A stretch of 64,000 nucleotides of DNA from an uncultured Porphyromonadaceae bacterium. GTDB lineage: Bacteria > Bacteroidota > Bacteroidia > Bacteroidales > Muribaculaceae. Both the position numbers and the translations under genes were made by a program. The DNA lies in assembly GCA_946553045.1 (NCBI GenBank), contig CAMNRO010000004.1, positions 62,001-126,000 on the forward strand, given 5' to 3'. The notes beneath the pieces are model-generated. The model was given only the letters and a program-made list of their open reading frames with translations. It had not been told where the DNA came from and did no database searches. Positions 28,314 through 59,527 of this stretch are shown in pieces. Within the stretch, counting starts at the first letter, position 1. Every line of letters starts with the position of its first letter.

Positions 28314-29324
28314 ATGGACTCTCAATATACAGCAGCCGACTATAAAAGCGAACAGGCCGTGCGATGGTGCCCGGGCTGCGGCGACCATGCAATCCTCAAC
28401 ACCCTCCACAAAGCAATGGCTACCCTGGGTGTGCCCCCGCACAAAACTGCCGTCATATCGGGTATCGGCTGCAGCTCGCGCCTGCCCTACTACATGAACA
28501 CATACGGCTTCCACACAATCCACGGCCGTGCAGCCGCCATAGCCACCGGCTACAAAGTGGCAAACCCCGAAATGACCGTATGGCAGATTTCGGGCGACGG
28601 CGACGGCCTCGCCATCGGTGGCAACCACTTCATACACGCCGTGCGCCGAAACATCGACATAAACATCGTGCTCTTCAACAACAAAATCTACGGCCTCACC
28701 AAGGGCCAGTACTCCCCTACGAGCGCACGCGGTTTCGTGTCGAAATCGAGCCCCTACGGCACCGTCGAAGACCCCTTTATTCCCGCTGAACTCGTATTCG
28801 GCGCCCGCGGCAACTTCTTCGCCCGCAGTATCGACGTAGAACTCGCCACATCGCAGGACGTCCTCGCCGCAGCAGCCCGCCACAAAGGCACATCTGTAGT
28901 CGAAATACTCCAGAACTGCGTGATATTCAACAACGGAATCCACAACGCCATCACCGACCGCGAAGTCCGCGCCGACCGAACAATCCTCCTCCGCCACGGC
29001 GAAAAAATGATATTCGGCAAAGACAAAAACAAAGGCCTCGTACGCGACGGATTCCTCCTCAAAGCCGTGATTATCGGCGAAGACGGATACACCATCGACG
29101 ACGTGCTCGTTCACGACGCCCACACCGAATCCAACTTCCTCCACCAGCAGCTTGCCATGATGGACGGCGAGACCCTCCCCCTCGCACTCGGCGTAATCCG
29201 CGACGTCGAAGCCCCCACATACGACGCCGGCGTCTCCGCCCAGGTGACCGAAGTCCGCGCCGCCAAAGGCTTCAACACCCTCCGCGACATGATCCTCGCC
29301 GGCGAAACCTGGACCGTCGAATAA
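28314..29324 (+). CDS. korB: 2-oxoacid:ferredoxin oxidoreductase, beta subunit (TPP-binding)
   Basis: VRWCPGCGDHAILNTLHKAMATLG, GIGCSSRLPYYMNTYGFHTIHGRA, ISGDGDGLAIGGNHFIHAVRRN. Confidence 0.88.
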   Translation: MDSQYTAADYKSEQAVRWCPGCGDHAILNTLHKAMATLGVPPHKTAVISGIGCSSRLPYYMNTYGFHTIHGRAAAIATGYKVANPEMTVWQISGDGDGLAIGGNHFIHAVRRNIDINIVLFNNKIYGLTKGQYSPTSARGFVSKSSPYGTVEDPFIPAELVFGARGNFFARSIDVELATSQDVLAAAARHKGTSVVEILQNCVIFNNGIHNAITDREVRADRTILLRHGEKMIFGKDKNKGLVRDGFLLKAVIIGEDGYTIDDVLVHDAHTESNFLHQQLAMMDGETLPLALGVIRDVEAPTYDAGVSAQVTEVRAAKGFNTLRDMILAGETWTVE

Positions 29325-29368
29325 AGCCAGAAAAACAACAATCGTTTAGACAGCAAATCTATATTAAA

Positions 29369-29407
29369 CTCCCGCCGAAAGACATTATCTCTCGGCGGTA
29401 GTTTTTT
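29369..29407 (+). terminator. Rho-independent terminator after the oxidoreductase beta gene
   Basis: CCGCCGAAAGA-CATTATC-TCTCGGCGG followed by TAGTTTTTT. Confidence 0.75.
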
Positions 29408-29485
29408 GACAAACCCCATCTGTTAAAATGTATTAATAAGGCCATTTTAACACAAACCAACCGTCTCTATTCACATTTTTTTGTT

Positions 29486-29493
29486 TATATTTG
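29486..29493 (+). promoter_or_regulatory. -7 element TATATTTG upstream of the GH31 locus
   Basis: Exact TAnnTTTG match in an AT-rich intergenic region. Confidence 0.5.
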
Positions 29494-29619
29494 CCAAAAA
29501 TCCTTCTATCATACCTTGATTTAGCGACTATAGAACAACATAAAGTCATCAAAATCATCAACAACTTCGCTTTTAAACCATTTTAGCACATTAAATTAAC
29601 CTTTTTCAACAATCCCACC

Positions 29620-29709
29620 ATGAGAAAGCTATTGAAAGGCTTATTCCCAATCCTTACCGCATTACTCTGTAACTCACAGAGTGTCAGCGCATTATCAGGG
29701 GGGGGGTAA
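29620..29709 (+). other. Signal-peptide ORF ending in a G9 tract, out of frame with the GH31 ORF
   Basis: MRKLLKGLFPILTALLCNSQSVSALSGGG* ; GGG GGG GGG TAA at 29698-29709. Deleting one G fuses it in frame to NSAHLTDGIVYKDKHVRF. Confidence 0.85.
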
Positions 29710-32278
29710 TTCTGCACATCTGACCGACGGAATCGTTTACAAAGACAAGCATGTCCGATTTACAGTAGTATCAGATGGTCTTGTACGATTAGAATACTCT
29801 CCAAAAGGCAAATTCGTTGACGATAAATCGCAGGTAGCTGTAAACCGCCTTTATCCCGAATCCAATGCCAAAGTCATCTCCGACAAGCAGTATGTGACAA
29901 TCCAGACTCCGAAACTGGAGCTGAAATACAAGAAAAACTCCGGGCCTTTCACCGCCGACAACCTTACGATAGAATCGCGGGGCGACATCAAACCTTTCTC
30001 TTGGCATCCCGGCATTGCCCAGAAAGAAAATCTAATGGGCACCACCCGCACTCTCGACCGATGGGACGGCCCCGACATCATGGTAAAAAACAAGGACGGC
30101 AAGTACGAGCCCAAACCGGGCCGACTTGAGACCGGCCTACTGGCTCGAGACGGCTGGACATTACTCGACGACTCGCGAAGCTACCTCTTCGACAACGACC
30201 CTGAGCTCGAATGGGTTAAAGAACGCAAGAACAACAAAGGTTCGCAAGACTGGTACTTCATGGCCTATGGCAACGACTACAAAGGAGCCCTCAAAGACTT
30301 TACCACGCTTGCAGGCCAGATTTCACTTCCGCCCAGATATGCATTCGGCTACTGGTGGTCGCGCTGGTGGGCCTATTCCGAACATGAGTTCCGCGATCTA
30401 ATCCAGAGTTTCAACGACTATCAGATTCCACTGGAAGTGCTCGTTATCGACATGGACTGGCACTACACCGATGCCGACCACGGAGGCTGGACCGGCTGGA
30501 CGTGGAACCGCCGTTTATTCCCTGAACCAGAGAAATTCCTCAACTATCTCCGCGACAACAATCTGAAGGTAACACTAAACTTACACCCGGCTTCAGGCGT
30601 CAAGAAATTCGAAGCCGCATATCCCGACATAGCCCGCGAAAACGGCATTGACCCCGCAACGGAAAAAGACGTGCCATGGGTCACCTCCGACAAGCGCTTC
30701 ATAAACAGCATATTCAAGCACATTCTCAACCCGATGACCGACCAGGGAGTCACATTCTGGTGGCTCGACTGGCAACAGGCCCTCTACGATTCGAAACTCG
30801 ACAGTCTCAGCAACACATGGTGGCTAAACTATACTTTCTTCACTAAAATGGCAAAAGACCGTCCTGAGGTCCGGCCACTTCTTTACCACCGCTGGGGCGG
30901 TCTGGGTAACCACCGATACCAGATCGGATTCTCAGGTGACAACTATGTGACCTGGAAATCACTCGATTTCCTGCCATACTTCACATCAACAGCCGGAAAT
31001 GTCTGCTACGGATTCTGGAGCCACGACCTTGGCGGCCACTATCTCGCACCCGGCGACACGACCACCAACCCCGAACTCTATGCCCGTGCCATGCAGTATG
31101 GAGCCTATAGCCCAATCATGCGCACACATTCCAACAAGAACCGCTATCTTGTTAAAGAACCATGGAATTTCGACCGCCGCATATTCAGCAACATCCGTAA
31201 TTCCATACAGCGCCGCTATCAAATGGCACCCTACATCTACACCATGGCGCGAAAGGCCCACGACACATCAGTTGCCCTGTGCCGCCCGATGTATTACGAC
31301 TACCCCGATGCCGAAGAAGCATACGCACAGAAAAACCAGTACATGTTCGGCGACAACATGATAGTCAAGCCCGTCACAGCGCCCGTCGAGGCCGATGGAT
31401 ATGCCACTGTAGAAGTATGGCTTCCCGAAGGGCAATGGTATGAGGAAGCCACCGGTACCATGCTCGAAGGAGGCAAGACATATCAGCGCCGATTTAACAT
31501 CGACGAAACTCCCGTCTACATCAAAGCCGGCTCCATTCTGCCATTCCACGCCGAAAAGGAAAGCACCCTGCGCTTCAACAACCCGGCTTATTCACTTACC
31601 GTATATCCCGGTGCCGACGGCTGCTTCACCATCTACGAAGACAACGGCAACGACCAGAAATACGAAACCGAATACGCCACCACAGATGTCTACTCCCGCC
31701 ACGAGGGCAACAGACTCACCGTGAAAATAGCTCCCCGCAAGGGCTCGTATGCAGATATGCCGAAGTCGCGTCGCTTTCAGGTGAAAACAGTTGCTGTAGC
31801 CCAGCCCAAATCTGTGAGAATAGACGGAACCGACGCCACATTCACCTACGTGCCCGAAGAACTCGCTGTAATCATAGACCTTCCTGAAAAAGAATGCGAC
31901 CGGGCCCGCACCGTCGAAATCGAATACCCCGACTCATACATGATTGCAGACGGCACGATCGGCAACATGAGCCGCTTCGTAAACGCATTCGGAAACATCA
32001 AGAACCGCTACGCGCGCCTTGAGGTAACCGAAGATTTCGGCCCGATGAGCATAATCTACGAAGCTATGGGCTACGCTCCCGAAAAAAATGCCGAACTGCT
32101 CGCCCAGTTCCGCGAGAGATTCGACCGCCTGCCCGAAATAGTAAAGGCTCAGCCGCTCGACGACAAAACTCGCGTATGGTTCCTCAACGCCGTCAATAAA
32201 CCAGAGGCAGCCAAAGCTATAGCCGACGAAATGGCAGCCAAGGCAGCGGCTAAAGCAGCTTCCGAAGACAAAAAATAA
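29681..32278 (+). CDS. GH31 family glycoside hydrolase with DUF5110-like C-terminal region
   Basis: IPLEVLVIDMDWHYTDADHGGWTGWTWNRRLFPEP; TFWWLDWQQ; GFWSHDLGGH; PGADGCFTIYEDNGNDQKYETEYA. The tracked start is an internal GTG; the natural start is probably ATG 29620 in an 8-G or 11-G allele. Confidence 0.9.
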   Translation: MSAHYQGGGNSAHLTDGIVYKDKHVRFTVVSDGLVRLEYSPKGKFVDDKSQVAVNRLYPESNAKVISDKQYVTIQTPKLELKYKKNSGPFTADNLTIESRGDIKPFSWHPGIAQKENLMGTTRTLDRWDGPDIMVKNKDGKYEPKPGRLETGLLARDGWTLLDDSRSYLFDNDPELEWVKERKNNKGSQDWYFMAYGNDYKGALKDFTTLAGQISLPPRYAFGYWWSRWWAYSEHEFRDLIQSFNDYQIPLEVLVIDMDWHYTDADHGGWTGWTWNRRLFPEPEKFLNYLRDNNLKVTLNLHPASGVKKFEAAYPDIARENGIDPATEKDVPWVTSDKRFINSIFKHILNPMTDQGVTFWWLDWQQALYDSKLDSLSNTWWLNYTFFTKMAKDRPEVRPLLYHRWGGLGNHRYQIGFSGDNYVTWKSLDFLPYFTSTAGNVCYGFWSHDLGGHYLAPGDTTTNPELYARAMQYGAYSPIMRTHSNKNRYLVKEPWNFDRRIFSNIRNSIQRRYQMAPYIYTMARKAHDTSVALCRPMYYDYPDAEEAYAQKNQYMFGDNMIVKPVTAPVEADGYATVEVWLPEGQWYEEATGTMLEGGKTYQRRFNIDETPVYIKAGSILPFHAEKESTLRFNNPAYSLTVYPGADGCFTIYEDNGNDQKYETEYATTDVYSRHEGNRLTVKIAPRKGSYADMPKSRRFQVKTVAVAQPKSVRIDGTDATFTYVPEELAVIIDLPEKECDRARTVEIEYPDSYMIADGTIGNMSRFVNAFGNIKNRYARLEVTEDFGPMSIIYEAMGYAPEKNAELLAQFRERFDRLPEIVKAQPLDDKTRVWFLNAVNKPEAAKAIADEMAAKAAAKAASEDKK
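29698..29706 (+). repeat. Mononucleotide tract G9
   Basis: atca-ggggggggg-taattctgc. Confidence 0.95.
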
Positions 32279-32393: not shown

Positions 32394-35336
32394 ATGTCAA
32401 ACAAGAAAAACGACGTGCTCCGGCTTTTCGGAATCCTCTTGCTATGGATAACCGCAGCCGGATTTACGACCTCGGCACAGACAGTGACCGGCACAATCAC
32501 AGGTGACGATGACCTCCCGGTAGTGGGAGCCTCGGTAGTTGTCGACAACGCCAAGACCGGCGTCTCTACCGACCTCGACGGCAACTTCTCCATCAACGCC
32601 AAAATAGGACAGAAACTCACAATCTCTTGCGTTGGCTACCTATCCAAAACAGTCAAAATCGACAAAACCACCGGGCTCAATATCATCCTTGAGACCAATA
32701 CAAGCCTGCTCAACGACGTCGTCGTGATCGGCTACGGACAAACCGAACGCAAGCGCGTAACCTCGGCCATCACCACAATCAAAGGCGACGACCTCGTGCA
32801 GGGCATCGGCGGCGCAACAGTAGCTACTGCCATGCAGGGTAAAATTCCTGGCCTTACCATCAACACTTCTAACAACCCAAACACCTCCAGCCCCGGCTTC
32901 CAGCTCCGAGGTGTAGCTTCGGTAAACTCATCGAAAGGCCCGCTTGTAGTAATCGACGGTATTCCCGGCGGCGACATTCGCTCTATCAACCAGGAGGATA
33001 TCGAATCTATCGACGTGCTCAAAGACGCCTCGGCAGGAGCCATCTATGGTACTCGTGCCGCCGGCGGCGTTGTGCTTATAACCACCAAGAGCGGCAAAGC
33101 CGGCAGAACAACGGTGACATACTCAGCCGAACTCTCAATTGACCATATTCGCAAACGCCCCGAAATGCTTTCGCCTGAAGAATTCGTCGCCGAAGGTCTC
33201 GGTTACGACTACGGCTACCAGACCGACTGGTACGGCGAGCTCGTCAACGACAACGCATTCTCCAACAAGCACACTATGACCCTCAGCGGAGGCACCGAAA
33301 AAGCCAACGTATATGCCTCGCTCATGTACAACAACGACAACGGCCTCATCAAGAAAAATACTCGTACCGACTATTCGGGCCGCATCAACGCCAATTTCAA
33401 GGTTTTCGAAAACAAACTTGATATAGGCACACGTCTGCAGGTGCGCCAGTCGAACCGCAACAGCCTCGGCAACACATCGCGCCTCAACAATGCAATGACC
33501 CTCAACCCTACTATTCCCCTGATGGATCCCGAAAATCCCGATAACTACAACATTCAGTCCAACGGTCTTGGCGGTACAACAACCTCGCCAGTGGCCGACC
33601 TCGCATACCGCGACTTCGAAGGCCGCGATCAATGGATGACAGCTTCGGGAACTCTCAAATACAACATCCTTCCAGGATTCTCGGTGCAGGCAAGCGCCAA
33701 TATCGACTACCGCCAATACCGCGCCTACGAATACCGCAGCCCCAAGCACCTAACATCTATCGAGACCGGCAAAAAAGGATATGCCAAGCACTCATACTCG
33801 CACGAGCTATACAACTCCTATGAAGCCTACGCATCATACCGCAAAGACTTCGGCCGTCACAACATCGACGCCGTGGCCGGCTGGAGCTTCTGGCAGAACT
33901 CAGGTGACAGTTTCAACGCCGAAAACTCCGACTTCACCATCGAAGGCGTAGGACCCTGGAACCTCGGCGAAGGCTCCGACCTCAAGGAAGGCATGGCTGG
34001 AATGGCTTCATACAAAGACCCGCGCCAGCGGCTGATAGCATTCTTCGGCCGAGCCAACTACTCCTACGACGAAAAATACCTCCTCTCTCTGTCATACCGC
34101 CGCGAAGGCTCCTCTAAATTCGGTGCTAACAACCACTGGGGCAACTTCTGGTCCGTATCTGGCGGCTGGCGTATAATCCGCGAGGAATTCATGAAAGACA
34201 TCGAATGGCTCAACGACCTCAAGATTCGCGCAGGCTACGGTGTAACCGGTAACAACGGTCTCCCATCCGGACTAACCACAACCCTGTTCACAAACTATGG
34301 CGAATACCCCTTCCAGGGCATCTGGCAGACCAGCTGGGGTCCACAGCGCAATGTCAACCCCGACATCAAGTGGGAGGAAAAACACGAACTTAACATCGGT
34401 TTCGACTTCGCAATGTTCAACAACCGCCTCTGGGGCCGCTTCGACTGGTACAAGCGCAAAGTAAACGACCTCATTTATCTGCTCAACGTGCCCGTTCCAC
34501 CAAACGTGCTCAAGACTTGCTACTACAACGTAGGCTCACTCTCCAATAACGGTTGGGAAGTAGAACTCGGAGGCAACATCCTCGACACCAACGGCTGGCA
34601 CTGGGATGCAACCGTTCGTGCATTCGGCAACAAATCAAGAATCGACAATCTCGGCTATGAAGGCGCATATGTCAACTCCGACAACCTGCCTGACCCCGGC
34701 AGCCCTGGTGCCGTTACACGAATCAGCGCCAAAAGCAATATTGGCGAATTCTGGGTATACCGCCACGCCGGCTTTGACGACGACGGTAAATTCCTAATCT
34801 ACGACCAGGAAAACAATATCGTGCCCGCAGAGAAAAATCTGAACGTCGACAACCGTGTCTACAAAGGCAACGCTCTGCCGAAAGTAATCCTTTCATTCGA
34901 CACCCAGGTGAAATACCGCGACTTCGACCTCGGCATACAGCTACGCTCTTGGCTCGACTTCGACATCTACAACGGTTTCGTGATGTACAACGGCATAGGC
35001 GACGGAAGCCAGAAAAACATGCTCCGCGACTATTACTACGACCATAAATTCATCAAGGACAACACCAAGGTCATATCCGACTACTTCCTCGAGGACGGCT
35101 CATTCCTCAAAATCGACGCAATCACTCTCGGATACACTCTCAACGCCGCCAAATTCAACAAATACGTGCAGAAGATACGTCTCTACGTCACAGCACGCGA
35201 CGTGGCCACTTTCACCAAGTATAAAGGCTACAACCCCGAAGTCAACATCAACGGCCTCTTCCCCGGCATCGAATGGCCTTCAGTCACATATCCGCAGTCG
35301 ACCCGGTTTACATTCGGCGCACAATTAACATTTTAA
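32394..35336 (+). CDS. SusC/RagA family TonB-dependent outer-membrane transporter
   Basis: Carboxypeptidase-like repeat (TVTGTITGDDDLPVVGASVVVDNAKTGVSTDLDGNFSI), plug DVVVIGYGQTERKRVTSAI, DVLKDASAGAIYGTRAAGGVVLITTK. Confidence 0.97.
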   Translation: MSNKKNDVLRLFGILLLWITAAGFTTSAQTVTGTITGDDDLPVVGASVVVDNAKTGVSTDLDGNFSINAKIGQKLTISCVGYLSKTVKIDKTTGLNIILETNTSLLNDVVVIGYGQTERKRVTSAITTIKGDDLVQGIGGATVATAMQGKIPGLTINTSNNPNTSSPGFQLRGVASVNSSKGPLVVIDGIPGGDIRSINQEDIESIDVLKDASAGAIYGTRAAGGVVLITTKSGKAGRTTVTYSAELSIDHIRKRPEMLSPEEFVAEGLGYDYGYQTDWYGELVNDNAFSNKHTMTLSGGTEKANVYASLMYNNDNGLIKKNTRTDYSGRINANFKVFENKLDIGTRLQVRQSNRNSLGNTSRLNNAMTLNPTIPLMDPENPDNYNIQSNGLGGTTTSPVADLAYRDFEGRDQWMTASGTLKYNILPGFSVQASANIDYRQYRAYEYRSPKHLTSIETGKKGYAKHSYSHELYNSYEAYASYRKDFGRHNIDAVAGWSFWQNSGDSFNAENSDFTIEGVGPWNLGEGSDLKEGMAGMASYKDPRQRLIAFFGRANYSYDEKYLLSLSYRREGSSKFGANNHWGNFWSVSGGWRIIREEFMKDIEWLNDLKIRAGYGVTGNNGLPSGLTTTLFTNYGEYPFQGIWQTSWGPQRNVNPDIKWEEKHELNIGFDFAMFNNRLWGRFDWYKRKVNDLIYLLNVPVPPNVLKTCYYNVGSLSNNGWEVELGGNILDTNGWHWDATVRAFGNKSRIDNLGYEGAYVNSDNLPDPGSPGAVTRISAKSNIGEFWVYRHAGFDDDGKFLIYDQENNIVPAEKNLNVDNRVYKGNALPKVILSFDTQVKYRDFDLGIQLRSWLDFDIYNGFVMYNGIGDGSQKNMLRDYYYDHKFIKDNTKVISDYFLEDGSFLKIDAITLGYTLNAAKFNKYVQKIRLYVTARDVATFTKYKGYNPEVNINGLFPGIEWPSVTYPQSTRFTFGAQLTF

Positions 35337-35349
35337 TATCTGAACAGTC

Positions 35350-37077
35350 ATGAAACTCAAAAGAATAATATCGGCTCTGACTCTATCCGGCATGCTGGCC
35401 TGCACAAGTTCGTGCGACCTGCAGGAAGAATACTACTCTGAGACCACCCCCGACACTTTCATAACTTCCGAAGCAAACATATACTCCCTGATGAGCCGCG
35501 TGCTCGTACACTGGAAGACATATCTGGGAAGCACTCGCTGGGAAGGACAGGAAATGACCACCGACGAATTCATCTGCCCCACTCGCTCTTCGGGCGACTG
35601 GGCCAACGGCGGTTTCTTCGTGCGACTGCACAACCACACATGGCGCCCCACAGACTCATTCTCCAACAACAACTACTACGAAAGTATGCAGGGCGTGGCT
35701 CGCTGCAATCAGGTAATCCAGCAACTGCAGAGCACAGACTATGCCGGCCTCGGACTAACCGAAGCCGACCGCGCCGACCACATAGCCCAGATGGAGACCC
35801 TCAAAGCATATTTCTATATGCGCTGTCTCGACTACTATGGCGGTGTACCCCTCTACAATCCCGGTGATACCGAGAACAAACCACGCGCTACCGCTCTCGA
35901 AACATTCAAATACTGCGAAAACATCTTTAAAGACGCATGCAAGAACCTCAAACCCAAGGCCGCGCTTGGCGCTTCGGAAGAAGGATACCTGTCGCGAGCA
36001 GCCGCTGCCACCCTGCTTGCAGAACTTTACTTCAACGCTGAAGCATATATCGGCGAAGCACACTTCAACGAAGCTGCAACTTTATGCCAGGACATCATTT
36101 CCGGCGTATACGGCCCCTACGACCTCGACCCGACATGGAACGGCATTTTCTCTTTCAACAATGATAAATCGCCCGAAATGATCTGGTGCTGCCCCTCCGA
36201 ATACGTGCACATGGAGTTCAACTGGTATTACCGCAACTTCATGCCTTACAACATCAAGAAATACTTCAACAACGCCTATGTGGCTTCCGGATACAACGGC
36301 TACTGCCTCGCGCCATCGCTCGACCCCGCAGGCCAACCATATTCCGTCACAAACCCCGAAATAAAGCTTGGAAGCCCGTTTGCAAAATTCCATAAAAAAG
36401 ACCTCCGCAAGAAGGTATACCGCTACAAAGGCAACGGCGAATATGTAGGCATGTTCCTCTTCGGCGAACTCGTCAACAACGTCACCGGCGATGTTGTCAC
36501 CGGCAACAAGGAAGACAAAGGCAAAGCCATAAATCTGCGTGACCAGGTATACAACTACGTCAAGAACCCCAACCCGACATCGGACACTCCATCGAAAATA
36601 ACCGATGCATGCGAAAGCTGCGGCGTGCGACTGCTTAAATTCCCCATTCCAAACGACAACGACGTCGAAATGACATGGACAGCAGACTTCCCCGCCGTCA
36701 GATTAGCCGAGGTATACTACACCCTGGCTGAATGCAAATATCGCGCCGGCGACAAGAAAGGCGCATGCGAACTCTTCAACAAAGTACGCGCCCGCAACTT
36801 CAAAGACGGCAATGACCCGGACCCCTGCACCGAAGCCAACCTCGACTTCTACCGTATCGCCGACGAATGGATGATCGAATTCCTTGGAGAAGGACGCCGC
36901 CGCACCGACCTCATCCGTCTCGGCTTCTTCATCACCGAAAAATGGTGGGATCACGAACCCAGCAACGATAAAAATCTGCTGCGTTTCCCCATCGGCGACA
37001 CCCAGCTCTCCGCCAACCCACTGCTCAAGCAGAACCCCGGGTATGGTGGCACCGAGCTCTCTCCTGAAGAAATCTAA
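35350..37077 (+). CDS. SusD/RagB family nutrient-binding lipoprotein
   Basis: MKLKRIISALTLSGMLACTSSCDLQEEYYSETTPDTFITSEANIY; C-terminal EFLGEGRRRTDLIRLG...LLRFPIGDTQLSANPLLKQNPGYG. Confidence 0.96.
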   Translation: MKLKRIISALTLSGMLACTSSCDLQEEYYSETTPDTFITSEANIYSLMSRVLVHWKTYLGSTRWEGQEMTTDEFICPTRSSGDWANGGFFVRLHNHTWRPTDSFSNNNYYESMQGVARCNQVIQQLQSTDYAGLGLTEADRADHIAQMETLKAYFYMRCLDYYGGVPLYNPGDTENKPRATALETFKYCENIFKDACKNLKPKAALGASEEGYLSRAAAATLLAELYFNAEAYIGEAHFNEAATLCQDIISGVYGPYDLDPTWNGIFSFNNDKSPEMIWCCPSEYVHMEFNWYYRNFMPYNIKKYFNNAYVASGYNGYCLAPSLDPAGQPYSVTNPEIKLGSPFAKFHKKDLRKKVYRYKGNGEYVGMFLFGELVNNVTGDVVTGNKEDKGKAINLRDQVYNYVKNPNPTSDTPSKITDACESCGVRLLKFPIPNDNDVEMTWTADFPAVRLAEVYYTLAECKYRAGDKKGACELFNKVRARNFKDGNDPDPCTEANLDFYRIADEWMIEFLGEGRRRTDLIRLGFFITEKWWDHEPSNDKNLLRFPIGDTQLSANPLLKQNPGYGGTELSPEEI

Positions 37078-37141: not shown

Positions 37142-39442
37142 ATGAAAAAAATAATACGAACCGTCTCTTTTTGTATGGCTATGGCAGCTGTCTGCCAGCC
37201 AAGCATGGCCTCGAACCCGTCAAAAATGTCACTTGAAGCACGCCAGGCGATTGATAATATCTACTATCAGGCGGCCAAAGGCGATGCCCGTGTTATGGCC
37301 GAAGCCGATAATAATCCGGTAGGCATAATCTTCAGACTTCAGCCTGGCGAATCGGCTCAAGACCTTAATATACCCGGTCTTCGGATCGTAACAACAGTCG
37401 AAAACATTGTAGTTGCGGCTATTCCTCTCACTCAGCTCGACAACCTGGCAGACATTGACGCAGTATCGTCAATAGAACTGTCTCAGATGTCCGAGCCAGA
37501 TATGCTATTCGTGCGTATGGGTGCCATGACAGGAGTCAGCAAAGTTCATACAAATCCTTTGGGAGAACTTAACCAGCCCTATCTGGGCGAAGGCGTTGTT
37601 GTTGGCCTTCTTGATACCGGACTCGACCCCAACCACATCAACTTCCGTACAGGTGCAAACTATGAAGACACCCGCGTCAAAGGCATATACACTTTCTACG
37701 GCAGTACAGGCATACCTAACGACGCTCTGACGACGCCCGACGAAATAAAAGCATTCACAACCGAATATAAAAACAAAAACCATGGCACACATGTACTCGG
37801 TATAATGGCCGGAGGCTACAGCGGCCCCGGCTACTGGCACGATTACGATTTCGGAACCCCGGACTCGCTGAAAACCGAAGAGCAAAACAACCGTACCGAC
37901 TTCAAAGACCTCAATCCCAATAATACCAAACCGATGCCTTACTACGGCATCGCTCCCAAGGCAGAAATCATAATCGGCTGCGGCGACCTATACAGCAACT
38001 CGCAGATTGTAACAGCTCAAAAAGTTATCGAATATGCCGAATCTGTAGGCAAGCCTTGTGTGGTAAACTACTCAATGGGGTCTCAGATGGGGCCAAAAGA
38101 CGGAACCGGCGCTTTTGCGGAAGCTATGACAAAATTAGGCGAAAAAGCCATAATATCGTGGTCTTCAAGCAACGACGGCGACAAGAAGGCATATCTAAGC
38201 GAAATTCTTGGCGCAAAACCCTCTTTCAAGACCACTATCCTGCCCAAAAAAGACAACGGAGCCACAGGCGCTTTCGAATTTTGGGCCAATGATGACAAAG
38301 CTCTGAAAGTACGATTGTTCGTCTACGATCCCGAAGAATACGACGAGTACGATATTGCCGTATTCAATGGCGCCACAGAAGGAACCACTTTCCTGACTGC
38401 TGAAAAAATATCCGAACAGAGCCTTAACAATATATTCAACGGAACAATCAGCGTCAATTCCCAGGTAATCGGGCAAAACAATCGTTTTCAGGTTTATATA
38501 AAGCTCAGCGACGACTATCGCATGAACAACCTTCCCGCCGGCAATCTACCCCGCCTGGCTGTAGAGATAACAGGATATACTGGCCAGCGTGTAGATGCAA
38601 ACGCAAATAGCACACTTCTCGAATTCTCGAACTGTAACGATACAGACTTCGTAAACGGAAGCAACATCATGTGTATCAACAACTCTGCTACCATAAAAGG
38701 GAATTTCGCTATCGGAAGTTATGTGCCGCGCGACTGCCAGATTCAGATAAATACCACGACCGGCAAGGAACGCGCCCGCTACTATGCCGGCTGGGAAATG
38801 CCCCTCGATATTGCTGAAAGTTCGGGCTTTGCAACTTTGGCTGACGGACGCAAACTCCCACACACATGCGCTCCCGGCACTGATGTCGTCTCGTCTAACA
38901 ATCGATATATAAGTAATCCCACATCCGAAGCAAACGCCTACACCGAATTCGGCGGTCAGAAATATTATTGGCGCATGATGAGCGGCACATCAATGTCATG
39001 CCCGGCATTCTCAGGCATAGCAGCTCTTTGGCTCGAGGCAGATCCGACTCTCAGCTACTCCGACATAAACAAAGTCCTCAAAAAGACATGTAAGAAAGAC
39101 AAATGGGTAGAAGCCAGACCCGAGCGCTGGGGAGCCGGAAAAGTCGATGCATATGAAGGCATGAAATATGTACTCGCCAATAAGACCAGCGGCATTCCAT
39201 CGAATCTTATCGAAGAAAATAAAATAATGGTGTCGCGTGTCGGTAACAACAGATTTGAGGTCACAGTAGGCATGGAACAAACATTCACTATAGACGTCAC
39301 CGCATTGTCGGGTCTTACAGTTGCCAAAGCCCAAGGCGTCAATACCGTTGCAATCGATGTATCCGGATTAGCCAAAGGCATATACATCTTGACAGCCCAT
39401 AACGATAATATGCGCCATTCTACCAAAATTGTGGTTCGCTGA
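37142..39442 (+). CDS. S8 (subtilisin-like) serine peptidase with T9SS type A-like C-terminal domain
   Basis: Triad motifs VVGLLDTGLDPNHINF, NHGTHVLGIMAGGYSG, MMSGTSMSCPAFSGIAALWL; C-terminus VDVTALSG...VSGLAKGIYILTAHNDNMRHSTKIVVR. Confidence 0.9.
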   Translation: MKKIIRTVSFCMAMAAVCQPSMASNPSKMSLEARQAIDNIYYQAAKGDARVMAEADNNPVGIIFRLQPGESAQDLNIPGLRIVTTVENIVVAAIPLTQLDNLADIDAVSSIELSQMSEPDMLFVRMGAMTGVSKVHTNPLGELNQPYLGEGVVVGLLDTGLDPNHINFRTGANYEDTRVKGIYTFYGSTGIPNDALTTPDEIKAFTTEYKNKNHGTHVLGIMAGGYSGPGYWHDYDFGTPDSLKTEEQNNRTDFKDLNPNNTKPMPYYGIAPKAEIIIGCGDLYSNSQIVTAQKVIEYAESVGKPCVVNYSMGSQMGPKDGTGAFAEAMTKLGEKAIISWSSSNDGDKKAYLSEILGAKPSFKTTILPKKDNGATGAFEFWANDDKALKVRLFVYDPEEYDEYDIAVFNGATEGTTFLTAEKISEQSLNNIFNGTISVNSQVIGQNNRFQVYIKLSDDYRMNNLPAGNLPRLAVEITGYTGQRVDANANSTLLEFSNCNDTDFVNGSNIMCINNSATIKGNFAIGSYVPRDCQIQINTTTGKERARYYAGWEMPLDIAESSGFATLADGRKLPHTCAPGTDVVSSNNRYISNPTSEANAYTEFGGQKYYWRMMSGTSMSCPAFSGIAALWLEADPTLSYSDINKVLKKTCKKDKWVEARPERWGAGKVDAYEGMKYVLANKTSGIPSNLIEENKIMVSRVGNNRFEVTVGMEQTFTIDVTALSGLTVAKAQGVNTVAIDVSGLAKGIYILTAHNDNMRHSTKIVVR

Positions 39443-56125: not shown

Positions 56126-59100
56126 TTAGAAATTTGCTACCAGACCGAAGGTTACGGTCACAGGGCGCGGGTAGGGAGCGCCGTCGATACCCTGCTGGTA
56201 GGTCAGTTCGGGGTCGAGACCCTTATACTTGGTGATGATGAAGGGGTTCTGGACGGCACCGAAGAGGCGCAGCTTCATCTTGTTCTTCATCAGATTGTCG
56301 AATGTATAGCCGAGAGTGATGTTGTCGCAGCGCACGAACGAGGCGTTCTGCACGAAATAGCTGCTGAGCATGAGCTCGGTGGTGCGGGTCTGCTCGAAGA
56401 GATAGGTGTTGTTCATCAGGTTCGAGAGAGTGGGCTGGTTGGTAGCCATGGCCGCAAACGAGTTGTCCATCTGGTTCTTGTTGTAAGCCCAGTTGCCGAA
56501 AGAGCCGCGGAGCACGAAGCCGAAATCCCAGTTCTTGTAGTTGAAGGTATTGTGCCAGCTTGCGGTCCAGTCGGGGTGAACGTGGTGGAAGAGGATTTTG
56601 TCCTCGTCGGTGATGGCGCCGTCGCCGTTCTGGTCGACATATACGCCTTCGAGCGGATTGCCGTTGCTGTCGTAGGCCTGCTCGTAAACCCAGAAGGAGA
56701 ATGCGCTCTCGCCCACTACGTGCTTCTGAACGTCGACACCGTTGCCGAGGCTGCCGGTGGTAGCCGATGCACCGTCGGCAAGACGGGTGATTTTATTCTT
56801 GTTGTAGGCAAGGTTTAGGTTCGAAGTCCAGGTGAAATCCTTGGTAACGATGGGGCGTGTACTGAGGTTGAACTCAAAGCCGGTGTTCTTGAGGTCGCCG
56901 AGGTTGAGCCAGCCCACATTCGAAAGGTTGGAGCCGGCGGGGAAGTTGGCCGATACAAGAAGGTCTTTGGTCTTGCGCTCGTAGAGTTCGATGCTACCGG
57001 TGATACGGTTGTTGAGGAAGCCGAAGTCGAGGCCGATGTTCTTGGTGGTTGTTTCCTCCCACTTCAGGTCGCCGTTATAGGGGTTGGGATATGCGAGCTG
57101 CACATACTGGCCGTTGATGATATACGAGTTGCCGTCGCCGATAAGGGTGCTGTAGACAGGCAGATAGGGGAAATAGTCGCCGCCTACGTCCTGCTGGCCG
57201 GTGATACCCCAGTCGAAGCGGAGCTTAAGTTCGCTCAGCACGCCGCGGGCGCCTTCCATGAAGCTTTCGTCGAGAATCTTCCAACCAAGAGCCGCTGCGG
57301 GGAACGAACCCCAGCGGTGGTCCTTGCCGAAGCGGCTGGTACCGTCGCGACGCATGGTGAAGGTGAGCAGATAGCGGTCCATGAAGGTATAGTTGAGTCG
57401 GCCGAAGAACGACACGAGCTGATAGCGGCTCTTATAGTAGCTTGTCGGGCCATACTGGTATCCGGCGAAGTCTTTCAGAGCGACGGGCTGACCGCCGTTG
57501 AGGTTGGGGTCGGAGAACATGATGTCGGACGATGCCATCTGCGGGTCGGCAACAGTGAAATCGTGGCCGCTGTTGTTGAAGCGCTGCCAGGAGTAACCGC
57601 CGGTGACGTCGACGTCGCTCTTGATGGCCTCGAAATTCTTGTGATAGTTGAGATAGAACTCAAGCATGAGGGTGTAGCGCTCCTGGTTTTCCTTGCTCAG
57701 GCTGCCGTAGCCCTGCTGCACGTTCACGACACCGCCGTCGGTGCCGCGCACCTGGAACTTGCCGTCCCAAGCCGCCGGCGAGAAGGGCTGCTCGAAGTTG
57801 CGCACCTCGCCGTGGCTGTAGTCATAGCCGAGGTTGAGGTTGGCGCGGAGCTCGCGGAGGAAGGGCATCTTGAGGTCAATCTGGAGATTGCCCACGCTCT
57901 GATATACTTTCGAGCGGCTGTAGTGGTCTTTCCAGAGCGACACAGGGTTCTTGGCATAGATATTGCTCACATTGCTGCCGGGAGAATCGGGGCCTGCGAG
58001 GCTGCCGTCGATGAGGTATGTGGTGTAGTTGTTGAACACATTGTCCATGTGCACCGGCAGAGTCGGGTTGAAGCCGATTGCGCTGCCCAGAGCGCCGCCG
58101 CCATAGTTATTGACGATATAAGAACCCTTGGCGTTGGCGCTGATGTTGAGAAGATCGTCGAAGAACGACGGAGTAAGGTTGATGGTGGCGCCCAGACGCT
58201 GGTTGTCGGTGCCGCGGAGAACACCGTCGGTGCCGGTGTAGTTCACACCGACGCGATAGGGAAGCGAACCTGTCTTGCCGCCTACAGAGAGGCTGTAGTC
58301 ATGGCTGAAAGTGGTGCGGAGCACTTCTTTCTGCCAGTCGGTGCTGACAGCGCCGAGCTTTGCGGCCTGGGCCGATTCGGCACCGTATTTGTTGATGATA
58401 TAGTTGCGATATTCCGAGCCGCTCATCATATCGAGATATTTGCGGGGAGTAGCCACATAGAAGTTGGCTGCGAAATTCACCTGCGGAGCGCCGTCCTTGC
58501 CTCGCTTGGTGGTGATGATAATCACACCGTTCGACGCGCGGCTACCGTAGATAGCCGTAGCCGAGGCAGATTTGAGGATAGTCATATTCTCGATATTCTC
58601 GGGGCTTACCAGCGAGAGGGGGTTCGACGAACCCTTCACCGTGTTGCCGTCCATGGGCACACCGTCGATTACGACAAGAGGTGCGTTCGAGGCGTTGAGC
58701 GAGGCACCGCCGCGAATCTGGATTGCAGCGCCGCCCGAGGGGTCGCCGCCCTGGGTCGACACAACCACACCGGGGCTTGCGCCTACGAGAAGGTCCTGAG
58801 CCGTTGTTGCGAGGCCGGCCTCGATGTCGGTAGGCTTAACGACGCCGACAGAACCGGTTGCATCCGATTTTTTAACCACACCATAGCCCACGACCACGAG
58901 CTCGTTCATGGCCACGGTGTTCGTCTTGAGATTTACGTTGATTTGGGTGCGGCCTTCAACAGGTATTTCCTGCGAATCGCAGCCGACATACGAGAACACG
59001 AGCACAGCGTCGGGGGCAACTGAAATTTTATAGTTACCGTCGAAATCGGTGGCTACGCCCTTTCCGGGAATGCCTTTCACCTCGACGCTTGCGCCGATGG

Positions 59101-59233
59101 CGGGTTCGCCTTCGGGCTCATACACAGTACCGGATACCGTGATGTTCTGCGCTAAAGCCGGGAGTGCTGCCGTGAGCATAAGAGCGAACACGAACAGTGC
59201 TTTCCGGGTCATTTGAAAACAAATGTTCTTCAT
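56126..59233 (-). CDS. SusC/RagA family TonB-dependent transporter
   Basis: ITVSGTVYEPEGEPAIGASVEVKGIPGKGVATDFDGNYKI; NELVVVGYGVVKKSDATGSV; MTILKSASATAIYGSRASNGVIIITTKRGK. Confidence 0.97.
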   Translation of the reverse strand: MKNICFQMTRKALFVFALMLTAALPALAQNITVSGTVYEPEGEPAIGASVEVKGIPGKGVATDFDGNYKISVAPDAVLVFSYVGCDSQEIPVEGRTQINVNLKTNTVAMNELVVVGYGVVKKSDATGSVGVVKPTDIEAGLATTAQDLLVGASPGVVVSTQGGDPSGGAAIQIRGGASLNASNAPLVVIDGVPMDGNTVKGSSNPLSLVSPENIENMTILKSASATAIYGSRASNGVIIITTKRGKDGAPQVNFAANFYVATPRKYLDMMSGSEYRNYIINKYGAESAQAAKLGAVSTDWQKEVLRTTFSHDYSLSVGGKTGSLPYRVGVNYTGTDGVLRGTDNQRLGATINLTPSFFDDLLNISANAKGSYIVNNYGGGALGSAIGFNPTLPVHMDNVFNNYTTYLIDGSLAGPDSPGSNVSNIYAKNPVSLWKDHYSRSKVYQSVGNLQIDLKMPFLRELRANLNLGYDYSHGEVRNFEQPFSPAAWDGKFQVRGTDGGVVNVQQGYGSLSKENQERYTLMLEFYLNYHKNFEAIKSDVDVTGGYSWQRFNNSGHDFTVADPQMASSDIMFSDPNLNGGQPVALKDFAGYQYGPTSYYKSRYQLVSFFGRLNYTFMDRYLLTFTMRRDGTSRFGKDHRWGSFPAAALGWKILDESFMEGARGVLSELKLRFDWGITGQQDVGGDYFPYLPVYSTLIGDGNSYIINGQYVQLAYPNPYNGDLKWEETTTKNIGLDFGFLNNRITGSIELYERKTKDLLVSANFPAGSNLSNVGWLNLGDLKNTGFEFNLSTRPIVTKDFTWTSNLNLAYNKNKITRLADGASATTGSLGNGVDVQKHVVGESAFSFWVYEQAYDSNGNPLEGVYVDQNGDGAITDEDKILFHHVHPDWTASWHNTFNYKNWDFGFVLRGSFGNWAYNKNQMDNSFAAMATNQPTLSNLMNNTYLFEQTRTTELMLSSYFVQNASFVRCDNITLGYTFDNLMKNKMKLRLFGAVQNPFIITKYKGLDPELTYQQGIDGAPYPRPVTVTFGLVANF

Positions 59234-59518: not shown

Positions 59519-59527
59519 CCCCCCCCC
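59519..59527. repeat. Mononucleotide tract C9 (G9 on minus strand) upstream of susC-like gene
   Basis: ccaatca-ccccccccc-aattt. Confidence 0.9.

Follow-up and report, generated by a model that had tools for sequence, protein, structure and literature searches.

A G tract between signal peptide and enzyme as a candidate slipped-strand phase switch of a GH31 gene in a Muribaculaceae polysaccharide utilization locus

The phase variation so far described for gut Bacteroidales is mostly a matter of DNA inversion (PMC11868660, PMC10939037). A 2025 review covers switching by inversion in Bacteroides alongside a slipped-strand sialidase in Gardnerella (PMC11868660); it cites a study of Bacteroides fragilis in which SusC/SusD proteins vary in phase through an invertase (Nakayama-Imaohji 2009) and the proposal of slipped-strand mispairing for the Gardnerella sialidase gene nanH3 (Kurukulasuriya, Patterson and Hill, its ref. 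62). Contingency genes with G or C tracts are described for Campylobacter, Neisseria and Helicobacter (PMC8355987, PMC6321876, PMC5084427), and homopolymer tracts have been argued to be a general device (PMC2831843). In Akkermansia muciniphila, slippage switches were proposed for capsule and acyltransferase genes that carry long G runs (PMC3048395). Our search of the open-access literature, with subscription papers and preprints outside its scope, returned no paper joining polysaccharide utilization loci, phase variation and slipped-strand mispairing. The slipped-strand mechanism is already known; that this search returned no case from a sugar-utilization locus of Bacteroidales is weak evidence that such a use would be new.

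The window, a 64,000-nucleotide stretch of contig CAMNRO010000004.1, contains on its forward strand a signal-peptide open reading frame (29620–29709) that begins at ATG 29620, encodes the 29 residues MRKLLKGLFPILTALLCNSQSVSALSGGG and terminates at a TAA (29707–29709) directly behind a run of nine G (29698–29706, followed by TAAT). Comparison with an orthologue (MRKLWQRLIPVILMMACNSLIISA) places a V-S-A cleavage-type site immediately upstream of the tract, the proposed switch. The GH31 enzyme proper starts at about 29708, after the tract and one frame off the signal-peptide frame. As tracked, the GH31 frame (29681–32278, forward strand, 865 residues) opens with an unlikely, internal GTG at 29681, and the next start codons in that frame, GTG 29894 and ATG 30035, both lie within the protein. 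These frames agree with the initial annotation, which had reported the interrupted signal peptide and an enzyme frame devoid of a proper start. Its family assignments are also confirmed by Pfam (PF01055, PF21365 and PF17137 for the GH31 frame): the barrel (PF01055) scores 185.8 bits and the C-terminal domain (PF21365) 77.8 bits, both above cut-offs, and DUF5110 is matched too. The best PDB sequence matches are 7wj9 and 7wjc (residues 10–678, E 4e-134), which are annotated as GH31 alpha-xylosidase and have no comparable tract.

The gene thus has a run of about eight or more bases inside its reading frame, and the length classes of this run turn the frame on or off. Eight G yield a single 885-residue frame, nine G a stop after 29 residues and ten G a product of 34 residues, which upholds by arithmetic the annotated joining of the frames at 8 or 11 G; the 9-G and 10-G classes terminate at once or nearly so (0–5 codons). 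In TAA-flanked tracts within a reading frame, the TAA provides an immediate stop in one off phase. We consider it likely that the GH31 enzyme at the head of the SusC/SusD locus is phase-switched by slipped-strand changes in this G9 homopolymer. Replication slippage in living cells would alter the number of G residues, reversibly. One length class in three (8, 11) would fuse signal peptide and enzyme, with a short linker rich in glycine between them; as this linker immediately follows the predicted cleavage site, the extra glycines should be harmless. In the remaining two classes, translation would end 0–5 codons from the tract and presumably leave no enzyme; the assembly as given would represent such an off phase. 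A polar effect on SusC/SusD may accompany it.

The initial annotation had called this a phase-variable secretion switch. The phase-variable, slipped-strand part is retained, with the orthologue, selection and family evidence given below, and the secretion part is not: the off phases lack a credible enzyme start, because only the internal GTG within the signal-peptide frame could serve, so that in the off state the enzyme is most likely absent, not made and left unexported. We therefore favour an expression on/off switch over a toggle between exported and cytosolic enzyme. Synthesis of a cytosolic protein from GTG 29681, the start chosen by a mechanical ORF finder, is barely credible, since this codon sits within the signal-peptide frame, family orthologues bear signal peptides and the resulting N terminus MSAHYQGGGNSAHL has no counterpart among them.

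Upstream, a candidate Bacteroidota −7 promoter box, TATATTTG (29486–29493, forward strand; a match to the consensus TAnnTTTG only), lies about 130 nt upstream of ATG 29620, so that the transcript probably includes the signal-peptide frame. Invertible DNA as the basis of phase variation was rejected, as the region 29300–29900 around the tract has no inverted repeats of at least 12 bp. Directly downstream of the GH31 gene, on the same strand, are a SusC-like TonB-dependent transporter (32394–35336), a SusD-like binding protein (35350–37077) and a subtilase (Peptidase_S8, 37142–39442) with a below-cutoff match to a Por secretion tail, all identified by Pfam. The SusC/SusD pair adjoining a carbohydrate-active enzyme marks a polysaccharide utilization locus.

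The named GH31 relatives nearest to the window enzyme, all from Muribaculaceae records, share 80, 71, 71 and 61% identity with it, and on this ground the window is assigned to that family. The closest orthologue, L118, comes from a rabbit-gut metagenome-assembled genome of a different genus (G071) and lies on the same contig as L097; the GH31–SusC–SusD–S8 order is kept there at 80, 79, 80 and 67% identity. Two genes that flank the window locus, for a POR subunit and PheS, gave no match in the 18 kb surrounding this copy. At the L118 junction, the signal-peptide frame MRKLWQRLIPVILMMACNSLIISAITPP halts at a TAA right behind a C8 tract, and the enzyme resumes in another frame. The junction thus carries G9 in one species and C8 in the other, a comparison made between species, with one genome for each. 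Nearly all other orthologues with their N terminus on the contig run in frame from the signal peptide into a VAYxDxxVRFTV-type sequence with no tract, and the sole further G or C run of at least 6 near the junction among them is one G6 (L150). Additional genomes (3 from the genus of G071 and 111 from that of G218) contained no further tract-bearing copy. These comparisons used protein searches because a DNA search with the 721-bp region within the genus gave weak conserved-domain matches only.

Run length alone is unremarkable: the window holds four overlapping matches to G8 or longer against 2.57 expected in dinucleotide shuffles, which is no enrichment. The position of the tract and its recurrence in the nearest orthologue are unlikely by chance. 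G071 has 32 tracts of at least 8 bases across its 3.7 Mb, which gives a probability of about 2.4e-4 that one would lie no more than 10 bp from the L118 junction. That a single orthologue has the feature, and has it as a C rather than a G tract, speaks against the switch, as does the lack of enrichment. The L118 C8, read on the opposite strand, is also followed by TAATT; a micro-inversion of a common G(n)TAATT segment could link the two tracts, and two separate origins fit equally well.

The initial annotation had also raised an assembly error, in which the population would be uniformly in frame and the assemblers would have miscounted the homopolymer. Because the window's assembly is fragmented (85 contigs) and has artefact-like poly-G contig ends, its tract length may be wrong; several of its contigs finish in long poly-G with the look of a two-colour artefact, and both genomes are short-read-style assemblies. 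Miscounts of 8–9-base runs are, however, uncommon in short-read consensus, and two independent errors would be required, hitting one junction in both species, a G run in the first and a C run in the second, and in opposite directions, as the window gene needs one base fewer and L118 one more. It would also leave unexplained why both species have in-frame homopolymers of about eight bases at one junction, which would themselves be expected to slip. Recurrence at the same junction therefore disfavours an isolated assembly error, and a run of a different letter at this spot in the nearest relative makes a genuine switch likelier than a sequencing mistake; we regard the length error as unlikely. 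The same opposite directions bear on programmed ribosomal or transcriptional slippage, by which a fixed proportion of enzyme would always be produced. Slipping is common on long runs of G or C, and the gene is conserved despite being out of frame, but the two species would require opposite shifts and hence share no programmed direction, which renders this account highly improbable.

A third reading takes the frameshift as a recent, non-reverting pseudogenization, in line with a frame that is broken as given in both the window and the orthologue. The mature enzymes point elsewhere. Over 850 codons, they differ at 123, 91 and 457 first, second and third positions, with dN of 0.14–0.15 and dS of at least 1.6, near saturation; this purifying selection argues against old pseudogenes for both the window and L118. 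The signal peptides, compared over 24 codons, have diverged more (dN 0.40), and both retain a start, a hydrophobic core and a cleavage-type site. Fixed loss of function is very unlikely given 865 codons free of any other lesion, a dN/dS of about 0.1 or lower, intact SusC, SusD and S8 genes, and two lineages broken at one junction by different homopolymers, a pattern unlike random decay. An intact, selected gene (dN 0.14 against L118) interrupted only at its tract is what the proposed slipped-strand switch would predict.

Similar tracts occur elsewhere in the family, among others in glycan and surface genes. The genome of the window (G000; 2.93 Mb, 85 contigs) has 33 places where a G run of at least 8 starts, about half of which are artefact-like poly-G at contig ends. 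In-frame tracts in this genome are found in genes for a hexapeptide acetyltransferase, a family 2 glycosyltransferase and an acyltransferase, and a Reg_prop/AraC-type regulator (L228:1853-4696, G000:C19) has an in-frame G8TAAT at codon 10, before a hydrophobic N-terminal stretch. Further examples come from other Muribaculaceae; the search pattern partly determined which genes were selected, so that they are illustrative rather than informative about rates. They include a rhamnosidase-type protein (L257) split exactly at G8, with Ig_Rha78A_N positions 1–86 before and Bac_rhamnosid_N after it; an acyltransferase (L258) also split exactly at G8, with Pfam profile positions 3–127 before and 122–324 after it; and a GH2 enzyme (L217) with an in-frame G10 behind the signal peptide near its N terminus. 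A C8 in a ferredoxin-oxidoreductase gene (L031) shows that a run within a coding sequence can also be ordinary. Among tracts gathered regardless of their flanks, TAA follows 14 of 45; the pattern H-G8-TAA occurs 491 times against 156 for its backwards control (208 of 297 Muribaculaceae genome rows), and H-G9-TAA is found in 69 of 295 Bacteroidales genomes.

Two side observations concern other G runs. In another Bacteroidales family, a G9TAAT divides an apparent type I restriction specificity subunit, assigned by eye (L267, G464:C83). Separately, seven contigs of the window's genome (C18, C24, C26, C28, C37, C59 and C60; L040, L046-L048, L050, L056 and L057) end in very long poly-G, directly following a shared motif, mostly ...CAGTAGGGG(C)GGGG, with a GTGTC(A)-like sequence often 20–30 nt before; these ends mark either the boundary of a repeat element or a block to sequencing, with poly-G as a two-colour artefact.

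Many intergenic tracts have two TTAAC boxes upstream and a TAnnTTTG box 18–19 nt downstream, and they define a family-wide promoter class, TTAAC-N5-TTAAC-N3-5-G7..11-TAA-N15-16-TAnnTTTG (loci L297-L326, L208, L227, L239, L252 and L277). In 38 non-identical examples, the spacing of the TTAAC boxes is exactly 5 nt in all 38, under a pattern that allowed 4–9; tract lengths range from 7 to 11, and TAnnTTTG stands at 17–20 nt in 28 of the 38. The pattern TTAAC-N4..9-TTAAC-N2..6-G7 matches in 107 of 197 genomes and its backwards control in 0 of 197, the control being a rough yardstick, as reversal alters codon and promoter content. Genes behind these promoters encode DUF3575 and other outer-membrane proteins, BspA-type leucine-rich repeat proteins, a SusC-type receptor, a GH8 enzyme and an AraC-type regulator. 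Tract length varies within the class: the orthologous promoters L319 and L322 differ between their two species (G11 against G9) amid well-conserved flanks, and a single genome has three copies close together with G10, G9 and G7. These tracts may either slip or be fixed promoter parts. The GH31 tract has neither a TAnnTTTG at 19 nt nor a TTAAC pair and was therefore placed outside this class. A second G9 of the window (minus strand, 59519–59527, C9 on the plus strand) is intergenic, 286 bp upstream of the minus-strand frame 56126–59233; with GTTAA repeats alongside and no TAnnTTTG at 19 nt, it is possibly a degenerate member.

Taken across the family, the tracts raise the prospect, which we rate at about even, of a genome-wide G-tract switch set in Muribaculaceae, with tracts inside the frames of genes for glycan degradation, glycan modification and regulation, and in a dedicated promoter class for outer-membrane and secreted proteins, in which tract length would set the spacing of two activator-type boxes to the −7 box. 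Such a set, if real, would add a second system of phase variation to the DNA inversion of Bacteroidales, and its promoter class is a family-wide prediction that is directly testable. At the GH31 locus, homopolymer switching of an enzyme for polysaccharide utilization would, if true, amount to bet-hedging over sugars, and standard assemblies would hide such switches as 'frameshifted' genes.

As in Campylobacter, Neisseria and Helicobacter, where G or C runs lie in the frames or promoters of surface-structure genes, the GH31 tract is a homopolymer within a frame, whereas its switching is predicted and its target is a polysaccharide-utilization enzyme of a gut Bacteroidota. Akkermansia is, like the window's host, a gut commensal with predicted switches; it belongs to another phylum, its case is prediction only and the tracts proposed there do not sit at a glycosidase signal-peptide junction. 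Gardnerella nanH3, as cited in the review, is likewise a glycosidase gene with a proposed slipped-strand switch, in another phylum and for another enzyme. The B. fragilis SusC/SusD system, in the form cited there, offers the random switching of a polysaccharide utilization locus that we propose here, but achieves it by DNA inversion.
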